A stretch of 24,027 nt of DNA from a virus: positions 1-24,027 of IMG/VR virus record IMGVR_UViG_3300005613_000413. One strand, written 5' to 3'. Under the pieces are notes generated by a model. That model was not told the DNA's origin. It searched no databases and saw only the letters and a program-made list of their open reading frames with translations. The position numbers and the translations under genes were made by a program. Positions 16,876 through 23,081 of this stretch are shown here, piece after piece (positions within the stretch are counted from its first letter, which is position 1; each line of letters starts with the position of its first letter).

Positions 16876-17109
16876 CTAAACCTTGCTTTCAACTAACTTA
16901 ATGGCCTTTTCAACTGTATCAATCATTATAGTCTCTTCATCATTTACAGTGATATTAAACTCATCTTCAATAGCCATGAGAAGTTCTATCATATCAAGCG
17001 AATCCGCTCCAAGATCATTTTCGAAACGATCTGATAATTTAATGATTGTTTTATCAATACAAAGATAATTTGCAATTATTGTGATTAATTTTTTAGGTAT
17101 ATCAATCAT
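16876..17109 (-). CDS. Acyl carrier protein
   Basis: Encodes 77 aa, the normal size for a bacterial acyl carrier protein. Residues 24-45 contain DRFENDLGADSLDMIELLMA with the DSL motif; Ser37 is the expected 4'-phosphopantetheine site. The flanking helix II/III pattern (AIEDEFNITVNDEETIMIDT, then VEKAIKLV) is complete, so the protein looks functional. It lies between small and large terminase genes with gaps of 6 and 7 nt and lacks a clear Shine-Dalgarno, suggesting translational coupling. I see no acyltransferase or ketosynthase in the window. It could use host enzymes or serve a modification pathway. Confidence 0.88.
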   Translation of the reverse strand: MIDIPKKLITIIANYLCIDKTIIKLSDRFENDLGADSLDMIELLMAIEDEFNITVNDEETIMIDTVEKAIKLVESKV

Positions 17110-17926: not shown

Positions 17927-18709
17927 TTAAACACCTTTTATCGGAATATTCACTCTGCCATTTAATAAATCTGTTTTCTTTAAAGGTGGTATTCTGTATT
18001 TAATTATATTTTTTCCCCATTTTCGCATAATAGCTTCACAATAATTTATTTCAATTTTTTGCGTTCTACTCGATACACTACCACCAGAATTATCGCCATG
18101 CTTACAATCATAAGCATATTTATTTATCCGTAATATTTTATTGTATCTATTCAACATTTGCAGGCTGAAATCATAATCTTGCTTCGTTCCTGTTCTTTCG
18201 TCATAATTCAAATCATGGTTTAAATGAGCTTGGAAAGGTCCCAAAATCGGTTGGGTTAATGAAAAAGGTTTATATTGCTGATAATTTCTTCTGTCTGTGT
18301 TTACATTAATCCCCCAAAATTTGCAACCAAATTGATAAGCAAGGTTAAATCCATTTATTATAAAATTATCTGCCTGCTCCGATGTTAAGGTTATTTTCTC
18401 AGTTGCCTTATAATGCTTATTTCTTTTTACCTTATACATTCCCTCAGTCATAACTATAGCCTTGACATCATCATCTAGCATCAATAAAGGCCTTTTAATA
18501 TTGTTCATAATCCATATTCGTTTTTTAACACACAGCCCGTCATTTTTATCCGGTATAATTATCAATCTGTTTTTATCATAACAAGCCAAATATTCATTTT
18601 TCTGGGATTCGGGTATTACTATTTTAGCGGTTGGAAAATAATTATAACCAGCTACCCGGCCAGCTCTTTTATAACTCAATATGCAAATATTAACAAAATT
18701 CTGCGTCAT
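17927..18709 (-). CDS. Glycosyltransferase, TET-associated (TAGT)-like
   Basis: Encodes 260 aa and overlaps the radical SAM gene by 20 nt. The N-terminus has ICILSYKRAGRV (8-19), AKIVIPESQKNEYLACY, then IIPDKNDGLCVKKRIWIMNN, and a catalytic-looking LLMLDDDV (75-82, DxD-type metal/nucleotide-sugar site). Later come ILGPFQAHLNHDLNYDERTG, KQDYDFSLQML (176-186) and HGDNSGGSVSS (204-214). This order matches the TET-associated glycosyltransferases that decorate modified bases in phage DNA. A glycan transferase acting on another polymer is the alternative. No TET/JBP gene lies in the window, so the acceptor is unknown. Confidence 0.75.
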   Translation of the reverse strand: MTQNFVNICILSYKRAGRVAGYNYFPTAKIVIPESQKNEYLACYDKNRLIIIPDKNDGLCVKKRIWIMNNIKRPLLMLDDDVKAIVMTEGMYKVKRNKHYKATEKITLTSEQADNFIINGFNLAYQFGCKFWGINVNTDRRNYQQYKPFSLTQPILGPFQAHLNHDLNYDERTGTKQDYDFSLQMLNRYNKILRINKYAYDCKHGDNSGGSVSSRTQKIEINYCEAIMRKWGKNIIKYRIPPLKKTDLLNGRVNIPIKGV

Positions 18710-19619
18710 CTATAATCCTATAATTTTTTATGTAATCATTCAACCCGCTTAACCTGCATGGACTCGGGCAATTTTTTTTGATTTTATTAAAATCCATTTT
18801 TTCCTTTTTGTTTAATATATCAATATCAAAAATGCTTCCGACCACTTTTTCCCACATTGAACAGCAATAGGATACCGTTCCATCATGTCTTATTGCTATT
18901 GTCGTCCAGTTAGCATAACATTGTTCATATTTATTAAATAAATAATTCCATTTGAAACTTACGTTTAATTTTCTATCCTCCAAATCTGCTAATTTTTTTA
19001 GCTCTTTTTTTATTTCCTGCAATTCATTTTTTTTATAATGATTAGTCACTGAATCAATTGGCCTAATACTTATGCAATCAATATCATATTTTTTAAAATA
19101 ATCATAAAATTCAGACGCCATGCCGGGATATTGAGCCAGACATTGCAATACAATTTTGGTTTTTAAATTGGCCTTTATTAACTTTTTTAAATTAAAAACA
19201 ACCTTATCAAAATAATCAGCTCCCTTTATTGTCTTATATTGCTTTTTATCCACAGAATCTATATTTATTTTTAACCAAGACGCGCCTCGAGGCTCTATAT
19301 ATTTCACCAAATTACTATTTATACCATAATTGATTTTTTCATTATGTAGGCGGCCAATAATCTTATAGAAATCAGGATTTAAGCCCGGTTCTCCCTGTCC
19401 AGAAAAAACCAAGCCCCTAACCTGCAATTTTATCAATCTTTTCAATACTAAATCAAATAATATATATGCCATATAATCATTATCTTTTATGCCATTCCGA
19501 TGAAAACAATATGAGCACTTCAAATTACATTTTCGCGTTATTGATAATTGAGCAGTTATCGGCTTTCTGTTAAATATAATCCGCTCTTGATATATTTTTA
19601 ATTTGCTCTCAGTTATCAT
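18690..19619 (-). CDS. Radical SAM enzyme
   Basis: Encodes 309 aa; start overlaps the ParB-like stop as ATGA. It carries the radical SAM cluster motif RKCNLKCSYCF (C31, C35, C38), the GGE-like SAM-binding stretch FSGQGEP (72-78) and the barrel pattern YGINSNL, WLKINIDSVD. The C-terminal Cys set (C234, C252, C253, C284, C288, C309; SYCCSMWE, NCPSPCRLSG) suggests a SPASM-like auxiliary cluster region. Such enzymes occur in phage DNA-modification operons with ParB and glycosyltransferase genes. The substrate cannot be read from sequence; peptide or base are both possible. Confidence 0.85.
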   Translation of the reverse strand: MITESKLKIYQERIIFNRKPITAQLSITRKCNLKCSYCFHRNGIKDNDYMAYILFDLVLKRLIKLQVRGLVFSGQGEPGLNPDFYKIIGRLHNEKINYGINSNLVKYIEPRGASWLKINIDSVDKKQYKTIKGADYFDKVVFNLKKLIKANLKTKIVLQCLAQYPGMASEFYDYFKKYDIDCISIRPIDSVTNHYKKNELQEIKKELKKLADLEDRKLNVSFKWNYLFNKYEQCYANWTTIAIRHDGTVSYCCSMWEKVVGSIFDIDILNKKEKMDFNKIKKNCPSPCRLSGLNDYIKNYRIIDDAEFC

Positions 19620-20236
19620 TTTATTTTTTCAATCCAATCCTTGCCCTTTATTACTCTGCCGACTCCAACAGGTTGCCCTTTCCTTGGGATTAAATCCTTA
19701 ACCTTTTTCAATCCAAATTTATCTAAGGCCACCTGCCAATCGAATGAATTATCAAAATATAATACGATATAATTATGCTCAAGTAATAACTCTTGTGAAA
19801 ATTCAACTTCGGGATTTTCACTTGTTCCGCCTCCGCTTTCTCCCAACAATTCCTTTTTATCAAAACCCATATTTAACAATTCGTCAACTTCAAATAAATT
19901 CCCTAAAATATCATAATCGAATTCGCCTGTATTTTTATTGCTGCGGACATTATACTCCTTAACTTCTGAAGGAGTAAGCTTTCTATTAGGTATCCTTACA
20001 TCAATCGTTTCGTTTCCCCTGCCTATAAGCTGCATTATCTTTAATCTTTGGTGGCCTGCAATGATGGTCTTATCTGTATTTACAGCAGGAATCTCTACAA
20101 GGTTGAATTTTTCAAGGCTTTTCCTTATTTCCTCCGCTTGCTTATTAGTAAGAATTCGAGGGTTATTAGGATATGGCATGAGGTCATTGATTTTGCGCTT
20201 TTCTGTTTTCCATGATAATTTATTTTTTTTCTGCAT
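19616..20236 (-). CDS. ParB/sulfiredoxin-fold protein
   Basis: Encodes 206 aa with AGGAG just before the start. Residues 14-110 are a ParB-type domain: KINDLMPYPNNPRILTNKQA, ITAGH-like core IIAGHQRLKIM (58-68) and NVRSNKNTGEFDYDIL. The C-terminal part (NYIVLYFDNSFDWQVALDKF, then PVGVGRVIKGKDWI) is an added domain I have seen in phage ParB proteins next to DNA methylases or modification genes. These are not plasmid partition proteins; the domain can bind nucleotides or nick DNA. It likely starts the cassette that continues with the radical SAM gene. Confidence 0.82.
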   Translation of the reverse strand: MQKKNKLSWKTEKRKINDLMPYPNNPRILTNKQAEEIRKSLEKFNLVEIPAVNTDKTIIAGHQRLKIMQLIGRGNETIDVRIPNRKLTPSEVKEYNVRSNKNTGEFDYDILGNLFEVDELLNMGFDKKELLGESGGGTSENPEVEFSQELLLEHNYIVLYFDNSFDWQVALDKFGLKKVKDLIPRKGQPVGVGRVIKGKDWIEKIK

Positions 20237-20476
20237 TTAAGCTCCTATTCCCAATATTTTGGCTTCGTCAATCGTAGAATGTTTTTTATCAGAAATTGCC
20301 CTTTCCATTTGCATACGGTTTAAGAACCTTTTCGTCCATGGCTGGTTTTTCCACCATCTTTTTATGATGCTGTTATTCATACGCCAGCTTCTTTTTTTGG
20401 CCGGGATATCAGATATAAAGTCATTCCCAAATAGATGAGCAAACCTTTTTAATATTATGGCAGTTCGCTTATTCAT
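20237..20476 (-). CDS. Basic hypothetical protein
   Basis: Encodes 79 aa with GGAGG upstream and an 8-nt overlap with the Tad1-like gene. Strongly basic, with Trp (RSWRMNNSIIKRWWKNQPWT, then KRFLNRMQMERAI). This may bind nucleic acid, but no known domain is recognised. Its stop lies directly before the ParB-like start, so it is co-transcribed with the modification cassette. Confidence 0.6.
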   Translation of the reverse strand: MNKRTAIILKRFAHLFGNDFISDIPAKKRSWRMNNSIIKRWWKNQPWTKRFLNRMQMERAISDKKHSTIDEAKILGIGA

Positions 20477-20816
20477 TTAACGTGCCCTCCACTCCCCTTT
20501 TTTTCCTGCTCCGGGTTCTGCGATTCAATGCATCAATAGCAGACTTCAACATGCAAATTGCGTGTTCATTTTCAGGATGTTTGAATTTTCCTTCCTGATA
20601 GAATTCCAGCCTGTCAATTGCCGCTTCGATTATTTCTTCAACAAAGGCACCATTGGGTTGAGACTTTTTCGGTATAGTATCAGATCGAACGGTAGGTTCA
20701 ATATTTTTTAAAGGACCACGTTGCCATGCTATGCAAAAGCCTCTCCCGTATGTTTGTCCGCCTCCCGGGTTGCCTTCTGTGTCAAGCCAATGTTTTGACT
20801 GCAATGTTTTTTTCAT
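20469..20816 (-). CDS. Tad1/Acb2-like cyclic nucleotide sponge (candidate anti-Thoeris/anti-CBASS)
   Basis: Encodes 115 aa, overlapping the upstream gene by ATGA. The N-terminus (GGGQTYGRGFCIAWQRGPL) predicts beta strands, followed by NGAFVEEIIEAAIDRLEFYQ, FKHPENEHAICMLKSAIDAL and NRRTRSRKKRGVEGT, a helical hairpin. This ENxxAI...LxxRTxxRxxRGVEGT pattern is what I recall of the Tad1/Acb2 hairpin family, whose members sequester immune signals of Thoeris or CBASS. From memory, published Tad1 ligand residues are Phe82, Asn92, Arg109 and Arg113; here Tyr73, Asn83, Arg100 and Arg104 have the same spacing. The family match is probable; the activity is an inference. Confidence 0.68.
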   Translation of the reverse strand: MKKTLQSKHWLDTEGNPGGGQTYGRGFCIAWQRGPLKNIEPTVRSDTIPKKSQPNGAFVEEIIEAAIDRLEFYQEGKFKHPENEHAICMLKSAIDALNRRTRSRKKRGVEGTLNE

Positions 20817-20986
20817 GCTCCAGCCTCCTTCCTGAAAAAATTTTGGATATATTCAGAGCGGGAATAACCTAATGCAGCTTTCTTTTTATCCACAATTAGA
20901 ACATGGGATTTTAAGACCCTGATATTGATTAGGATTTTTTCTTCATCGTCCGGTAGTTTCGGACGACCCCGCATTTTTTTTGGCAT
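20813..20986 (-). CDS. Ribbon-helix-helix-like small DNA-binding protein
   Basis: Encodes 57 aa: MPKKMRGRPKLPDDEEKILI, then NIRVLKSHVLIVDKKKAALG and YSRSEYIQNFFRKE. A beta strand (KILINIRVLK) followed by two helices, the second starting GYSRSEYIQ, is the ribbon-helix-helix (Arc/CopG) layout. The RGRPKLP start is an AT-hook-like basic tail. It likely dimerises and represses transcription. It lies between the 51-aa gene (1-nt gap) and the Tad1-like gene (ATGA overlap). No clear Shine-Dalgarno is visible before the ATG; M5 is an alternative start. Confidence 0.68.
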   Translation of the reverse strand: MPKKMRGRPKLPDDEEKILINIRVLKSHVLIVDKKKAALGYSRSEYIQNFFRKEAGA

Positions 20987-21993: not shown

Positions 21994-22710
21994 TTATTCT
22001 CCATAAATCCACCAACGAAACATCTCTTTTCCATCTTTCCAACGAAGAACCGACTTTTTACCTTGCTTTATTCTGTTTTCATATAGCTTGCAAAAAGCCT
22101 TTTCAAAAGCTCTTGCATATTTAGGATATCGAATTAACTCTTTTATTCTCATTTTTTTGCTTGCCTGTGGACAAAAAAGACACCCAAGCCTTTTAAAGCC
22201 TTCATCATATAGCTTGCAATAAGGCAGACTGTATTTACCTATAAAATACCAGATATCCGCATCAGTCCAATCAATTATCGGATGGACAAATTTTTTGCCT
22301 TTTCCTTTATAACAGCTTTCAACCATTTGTCTTTTTTCTCTTTGTCTGCTTTCATCCCATCGAATACCAACAAGACAAGTTCTGCCATTACCCGATTTCT
22401 CCTTTAATATTTCACAGCACCAACGAGATTGACGTAATGGAAAGCCTTTTGTTTGTAGTTTTTTTAAGAAAGGCTCTTGCCATGCTCTTTCAAACTTAAC
22501 GTCTGGATGTTCTTGCCTTATAAATTTAACCAGCTCAGGCGGATCGATAGTAGTATTATTATAATGCGAATCATATTTAACATCAGCCATATTTGCCAAT
22601 TCTTTTAGCACACAAGAATCCTTACCACCTGAAAAGCATAGATAATATCCTTCTGGCGGCTGGAAAGCCTGTAGCCTGTCTAATGTTTTATAGAGCTTTT
22701 CTTTATTCAT
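21994..22710 (-). CDS. PAPS-reductase-like PP-loop enzyme
   Basis: Encodes 238 aa from the ATG at 22710 (MNKEKLYKTLDRL), which has AAAGGAGAA directly before it; an earlier start at 22809 would overlap the membrane gene. The PP-loop SGGKDS is at 27-32, the Cys pair RWCCE at 96-100, GIRWDESRQR at 115-124, and GCLFCP at 176-181. The CC and CxxC can ligate a 4Fe-4S cluster, as in CysH- and DndC-like enzymes. It adenylates or moves sulfur; in phages it may serve nucleic acid modification or sulfur capture. Flanked by 33-nt repeats. Confidence 0.85.
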   Translation of the reverse strand: MNKEKLYKTLDRLQAFQPPEGYYLCFSGGKDSCVLKELANMADVKYDSHYNNTTIDPPELVKFIRQEHPDVKFERAWQEPFLKKLQTKGFPLRQSRWCCEILKEKSGNGRTCLVGIRWDESRQREKRQMVESCYKGKGKKFVHPIIDWTDADIWYFIGKYSLPYCKLYDEGFKRLGCLFCPQASKKMRIKELIRYPKYARAFEKAFCKLYENRIKQGKKSVLRWKDGKEMFRWWIYGE

Positions 22711-22740
22711 TTCTCCTTTTTCGGTTAGGGTTGTTAATAT
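22708..22740 (-). repeat. 33-nt direct repeat, upstream copy
   Basis: Spans the end of the membrane protein gene, the ribosome binding site and the ATG of the PAPS-reductase-like gene. Its partner is at 21961-21993. In both copies the preceding gene's stop codon lies at or next to the far end, then TAACC, GA, AAAGGAGAA and ATG. Confidence 0.6.
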
Positions 22741-23081
22741 TTTATTAATCTTATAATATCTCTTAATGCATAATATTCCGGATTGAATATTTGTGTTATG
22801 GTAAACCATACAAGAATAAAAGAAAAAAATGAAATAATACCCAACATCATAGTAGTAAATATATTTATGTTAAATTCATCCCAATCTTTTACTTTCCTTG
22901 CGCTAATGTAACATATTATACCTGATAATATAAAAACTACTAATGGAACAACCCCCTCTATTATCTTCTGCTTTACAACTATGGGATACACATAATCAGC
23001 TGATTGCCCAATACCTTTGCCTAATGCTATAATAGCATTTTCTACTTTTTCAACCAAAACTGTTACTGTTGAATCTTGCAT
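22734..23081 (-). CDS. Two-helix membrane protein
   Basis: Encodes 115 aa with AAAGGA 7 nt before the ATG. The first 38 residues are soluble (EKVENAIIALGKGIGQSADY), then two membrane helices at about 42-60 (EGVVPLVVFILSGIICYIS) and 74-98 (IFTTMMLGIISFFSFILVWF), with a charged loop between. Size and layout resemble phage membrane proteins annotated as holin-like, but no endolysin is visible nearby, so I leave the function open. Confidence 0.65.
   Translation of the reverse strand: MQDSTVTVLVEKVENAIIALGKGIGQSADYVYPIVVKQKIIEGVVPLVVFILSGIICYISARKVKDWDEFNINIFTTMMLGIISFFSFILVWFTITQIFNPEYYALRDIIRLIKY

Follow-up and report, generated by a model that had tools for sequence, protein, structure and literature searches.

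Gene organization at the locus

The analysed window, i.e. the whole 24,027-nt stretch of the IMG/VR virus record IMGVR_UViG_3300005613_000413, carries on its minus strand a 115-aa ORF, which is listed in Table 1 together with its neighbors and the segments of its product. The ORF is a genuine gene, and inspection of the sequence showed a perfect AAGGAGG motif 5' of its ATG. As the genes for a 79-aa product, a ParB-like protein, a radical SAM/SPASM protein and a TET-associated glycosyltransferase (TAGT) follow with overlaps or without any gap, the 115-aa gene looks like an upstream member of one tight operon. The 79-aa product is basic and Trp-rich, and searches of Pfam, PHROGs and NCBIfam assigned it to no family.

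Table 1. Coordinates of the 115-aa gene, the segments and candidate ligand codons of its product, and the adjacent genes.
Feature	Position	Strand	Evidence or remark
TAGT	17927-18709	(-)	downstream of the 115-aa gene; overlapping or abutting neighbors
Radical SAM/SPASM protein	18690-19619	(-)	downstream of the 115-aa gene; overlapping or abutting neighbors
ParB-like protein	19616-20236	(-)	downstream of the 115-aa gene, within 17927..20236; overlapping or abutting neighbors
79-aa ORF	20237..20476	(-)	overlaps the end of the 115-aa gene by 8 bases; same apparent operon
115-aa gene, assigned to the Tad1 family	20469..20816	(-)	ATG 20814-20816, stop 20469-20471; ORF and Tad1 homology
Shine-Dalgarno sequence AAGGAGG	20824..20830	(-)	7 nt 5' of the ATG; read from sequence
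Residues 1-36, predicted N-terminal beta domain	20709..20816	(-)	AlphaFold strands 6-11, 17-24, 27-31; profile alignment
Residues 37-54, loop from last strand to helix 1	20655..20708	(-)	low model confidence; site of variable subfamily insertions
Residues 55-115, NG motif, predicted hairpin (59-74, 81-107) and RGVEGT tail	20472..20654	(-)	SBSphiJ7 Tad1 45% (55-112); phrog_2428 2e-16
Tyr73 codon (CbTad1 Phe82)	20598..20600	(-)	Y in 77/79 subfamily; F in 44/71 Tad1 clade
Asn83 codon (CbTad1 Asn92)	20568..20570	(-)	N in 78/79 subfamily; 69/71 Tad1 clade
Arg100 codon (CbTad1 Arg109)	20517..20519	(-)	R in 79/79 subfamily; 71/71 Tad1 clade
Arg104 codon (CbTad1 Arg113)	20505..20507	(-)	R in 79/79 subfamily; 70/71 Tad1 clade

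The ParB-TAGT pair was found in 13 relatives, with TAGT identities of 55-63% and ParB always directly upstream of TAGT. A Tad1-like gene was present beside the pair in none of them (0/13; in 10 the sequence continues for 2.8 kb or more on the upstream side of ParB), nor in any of 40 loci retrieved through the ParB protein. We therefore rejected the idea that the 115-aa gene is a constant component of the modification cassette; since the pair is kept elsewhere without it, the gene is an accessory beside a conserved modification pair. The initial annotation had placed the gene just upstream of this cassette and suggested that both form a counter-defence block. The position is correct, while the joint block, plausible as a counter-defence region, rests on adjacency to a pair that is maintained elsewhere on its own.

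Regarding the other genes in the window, the radical SAM/SPASM gene is located between ParB and TAGT, and no similar gene was found in the 13 TAGT relatives; its product possibly adds a further base- or sugar-modification step. An acyl carrier protein gene (PP-binding, E 5.5e-12) occupies an unusual position at 16876-17109 (-), its neighbors being the large terminase gene and, immediately upstream, a gene for a 170-aa product. A protein with a PAPS-reductase domain is encoded at 21994-22809 (-) (PF01507, E 1.5e-24; phrog_424, E 5e-41). Genes with this domain are common, poorly understood auxiliary genes of phages.

Sequence homology to Tad1

Searching all PDB chains with the single 115-aa sequence (phmmer) returned Tad1 of two species, with E-values of 2.4e-5 and 3.3e-5, and the gp184 chain (8y6v) at 0.001; this search gave no other significant match. 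With a profile of 66 subfamily members the E-values for the PDB chains fell to 2.8e-19 for CmTad1, 2.8e-15 for CbTad1 and 9e-10 for gp184. As the profile alignment to Tad1 begins in the strand WQNGP (FQEGP in Tad1), the homology is not confined to the helical hairpin, and the last strand of the 115-aa protein, CIAWQRGP, is hereby paired with VNFQEGP or TIKFQKG of Tad1.

Tad1 of phage SBSphiJ7 is the founding anti-Thoeris protein. A tblastn search of phage genomes aligned it to residues 55-112 of our protein, the helical hairpin, with 45% identity (E 2e-7), and its gene is annotated as Tad1 in record OM982674. Among the PHROGs the 115-aa protein matched phrog_2428 at E 2e-16, the family also matched by all of its aligned relatives (66/66) and by SBSphiJ7 Tad1, which was used as positive control (8e-47). 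The E-values for the PDB chains and for phrog_2428 are too low for a resemblance by chance. The Pfam model PF24729 (Acb2_Tad1_hairpin) scored the same control above cut-off (34 bits) and gave no match for the 115-aa protein. Since it scored only 17 of the 66 relatives, all of which match phrog_2428, we consider this model insensitive here. A PADLOC match to PDC-M10A (E 0.003) covers only the hairpin and adds nothing, and a RecX_HTH1 match (E 0.18) was dismissed as noise.

Predicted fold

An AlphaFold2 model of the monomer, built with a 66-row alignment, reached a mean pLDDT of 86 and a pTM of 0.76, with a stretch of low confidence at about residues 31-50. The model shows an antiparallel beta N-terminus followed by two long C-terminal helices, with three strands assigned compared with four in Tad1 (limits in Table 1). 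The Gly-rich beta N-terminus and the helical hairpin that had been read from the bare sequence of the 115-aa product thus agree with both translation and model, and the RGVEGT noted near the end is found in the actual C-terminus, ...KKRGVEGTLNE.

The top 20 Foldseek matches in the PDB were all Tad1, and after these 20 rows no PDB match was better than E 0.57. In VIA-align the model was aligned with Tad1 chains across residues 1-115, with a Z-score of 10.2 for CmTad1 (98 residues, rmsd 2.2) and 9.7 for CbTad1, while the first row other than Tad1 had a Z of 7.2 over 54 residues. The best viral model in BFVD is an 'Acb2/Tad1 hairpin domain-containing protein' of Vibrio phage VP-1 (TM 0.81). Sequence, a family model shared with the SBSphiJ7 Tad1 control and predicted fold all agree with the Tad1-like identity assigned at first sight, and on this combined evidence from sequence and model we regard the 115-aa product as a divergent Tad1 homologue.

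Candidate ligand residues

In the HMMER alignment of the hairpins Tyr73, Asn83, Arg100 and Arg104 correspond without any gap to CbTad1 Phe82, Asn92, Arg109 and Arg113, which bears out the spacing originally proposed for these four positions (numbers in the PDB chain of CbTad1 are higher by one than those given there). We take these CbTad1 residues to be the ones that contact gcADPR. The conservation given in Table 1 was counted in 150 relatives, 79 from the subfamily of the 115-aa protein and 71 from the Tad1 clade. Cys80/Arg81, present in most of the Tad1 clade, are replaced by His-Pro, and Trp96 of the Tad1 clade is likewise not kept; in that clade K89-E92 and W96 look more invariant than they are, as KLEEALMW had served as search pattern.

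The NPAGG subfamily

A close-knit, widespread subfamily with the pattern NPAGG...WQNGPLGRG...PNGAFVE...VEGTH emerged from scans of viral contigs, 177 or more of which encode a member. Its full consensus reads D-x-NGNPAGG-xxxGxG-xx-I-x-WQNGPLGRG-xx-R-x-EPNGAFVE ... RLxFYQxSKFxCxENAxAI ... RTxxREARxVEGTH. In residues 1-36 of the 115-aa protein the subfamily motif reads GNPGGG...GxGFxIxWQxGPL. The branch leading to the protein is long (0.83 substitutions per site), and all subfamily-invariant positions are retained in it, namely G26, Q32, G34, N55, G56, E60, R69, A86, R100, T101, R104, E110 and G111. Its loop 37-54 is about 8 residues longer than the common GRGxxRxE form and longer than in most relatives. 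In the same loop Cys/His-rich insertions, possibly metal-binding, were observed in three further loci (L016:8001-8357, L017:7977-8384, L080:2355-2726).

Regarding the genomic context of the subfamily, no recurrent partner was found among 136 neighbors of 37 relatives; HNH endonucleases, DNA polymerases, terminases and regulators each occur beside 1-3 of them. The curated Acb2/Tad1 Pfam model overlooks most of the subfamily, yet its candidate ligand residues are kept, which suggests that annotation underestimates how common signal sponges are.

Proposed function and alternative explanations

We consider it likely, with a probability of about 0.84, that the gene encodes a sponge of the Tad1 family. 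Family and fold are well supported, and by analogy with Tad1 the sponge function is probable. The architecture of Tad1, its action as a sponge and its ligands have been reviewed (PMC12043709): gcADPR and cyclic dinucleotides are bound in shared pockets, which are formed by loops and the C-terminal tail of one protomer and by helices of the other, while cyclic trinucleotides sit at the trimer interfaces of the hexamer. From the known behavior of the family we infer an oligomer, sponge action and a role in counter-defence for the 115-aa protein. The hairpins would mediate assembly as in Tad1, where dimers are joined into a hexamer, and during infection the protein would capture, but not degrade, a nucleotide with which the infected host raises the alarm. 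This may be glycocyclic ADP-ribose, as made by Thoeris TIR proteins, and/or a cyclic di- or trinucleotide of CBASS. With the signal captured, the effector of Thoeris or CBASS would not be triggered and phage replication would continue. Points against this assignment are the long branch, the shorter N-terminal domain, the long low-confidence loop at a place where the Tad1 pocket is lined, the loss of Cys80/Arg81, and the missing match to the Pfam hairpin model.

Some of these features could also be read as a change in ligand. According to this explanation, which overlaps with the preferred one and which we rate as somewhat unlikely, the protein is a sponge with the Tad1 fold, but its pocket now accommodates a different nucleotide, be it another isomer of cyclic ADP-ribose, another cyclic oligonucleotide or the signal of an undescribed system, with loop 37-54 setting the specificity. 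The N-terminal signature peculiar to the subfamily (NPAGG, GxG, WQNGPL, R51, PNGAFVE), the recurrent insertions into one and the same loop, some of them Cys/His-rich (L016, L017, L080), Tyr instead of Phe at position 73 and the absence of Trp96 and Arg81 would all fit such a shift, and judged from the sequence the longer loop together with the loss of Cys80/Arg81 could alter specificity. However, the contact residues named above are shared with Tad1, and since Tad1 itself already binds several ligand classes (PMC12043709), no new specificity is needed. The further-reaching idea that the NPAGG subfamily may be a functionally distinct class of sponges, in which the variable loop has re-tuned the pocket to a host signal new for Tad1, appears unlikely to us.

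A structural or virion role of a hairpin-domain protein that is not a sponge is far less probable. The hairpin also occurs in longer proteins, such as gp184, whose chain in 8y6v was matched, and the annotation 'structural protein' is found in some phage relatives, but for phiKZ Tad1 itself both inhibition of CBASS and Thoeris and injection into the host were reported (PMC13282480). Moreover, the 115-aa gene is located outside the head/tail module, its product has the beta-plus-hairpin architecture of Tad1 in the model, and the neighborhoods of its relatives are mixed. Slightly less probable still is a decayed or non-functional Tad1 relic, to which the long branch, the lost Cys80/Arg81 and the unusual loop might point, as the frame is intact, the ribosome-binding site perfect and every subfamily-invariant position retained.

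The Tad1-family sponge stays our preferred explanation, and in all probability the protein serves counter-defence in an ordinary way, although its sequence is divergent. This would put a Tad1-type counter-defence gene into an uncultured tailed phage; the individual finding is ordinary biology, as the Tad1 family is already known.

Comparison with known systems

Acb2 (anti-CBASS 2) has the Acb2_Tad1 hairpin domain PF24729, the model that scores 17/66 relatives, in common with Tad1. At its N-terminus Acb2 has a short helix in place of a beta domain (PMC12043709), unlike the 115-aa protein with its predicted beta N-terminus. Because of this beta domain Tad1 is the right label, and Acb2 was rejected. 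No Acb2 chain was returned by the sequence-profile search of PDB chains or seen among the top fold matches, an absence which alone proves nothing.

Among phage records the nearest are Tad1-like hypothetical proteins of Vibrio phages VP-1, BX-1 and 1.244.A, with 40-46% identity over nearly the full length; these do not have the long loop. The jumbo phage phiKZ Tad1, gp184 (8y6v), resembles the 115-aa protein in hairpin and tail, whereas gp184 has 230 aa with a larger N-terminal part, and the alignment is limited to the hairpin. In PMC12043709 orf184 is named as the gene for a Tad1 that CBASS-resistant phages carry naturally.

Compared with the solved Tad1 proteins, the 115-aa protein has a shorter N-terminal domain with the NPAGG signature, a longer loop 37-54, Tyr instead of Phe at position 73 and no Trp96, and its identity to CmTad1 is 28% over the structural alignment. 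With Tad1 of SBSphiJ7, CmTad1 (8kbb) and CbTad1 (7uav, 8smd) it nevertheless belongs to the same sequence family, with a beta N-domain and a C-terminal helical hairpin according to the model, and it has the aromatic/Asn/Arg/Arg set, the WQ(or FQ)xGP and NG loops and the RGVEGT tail in common with them.
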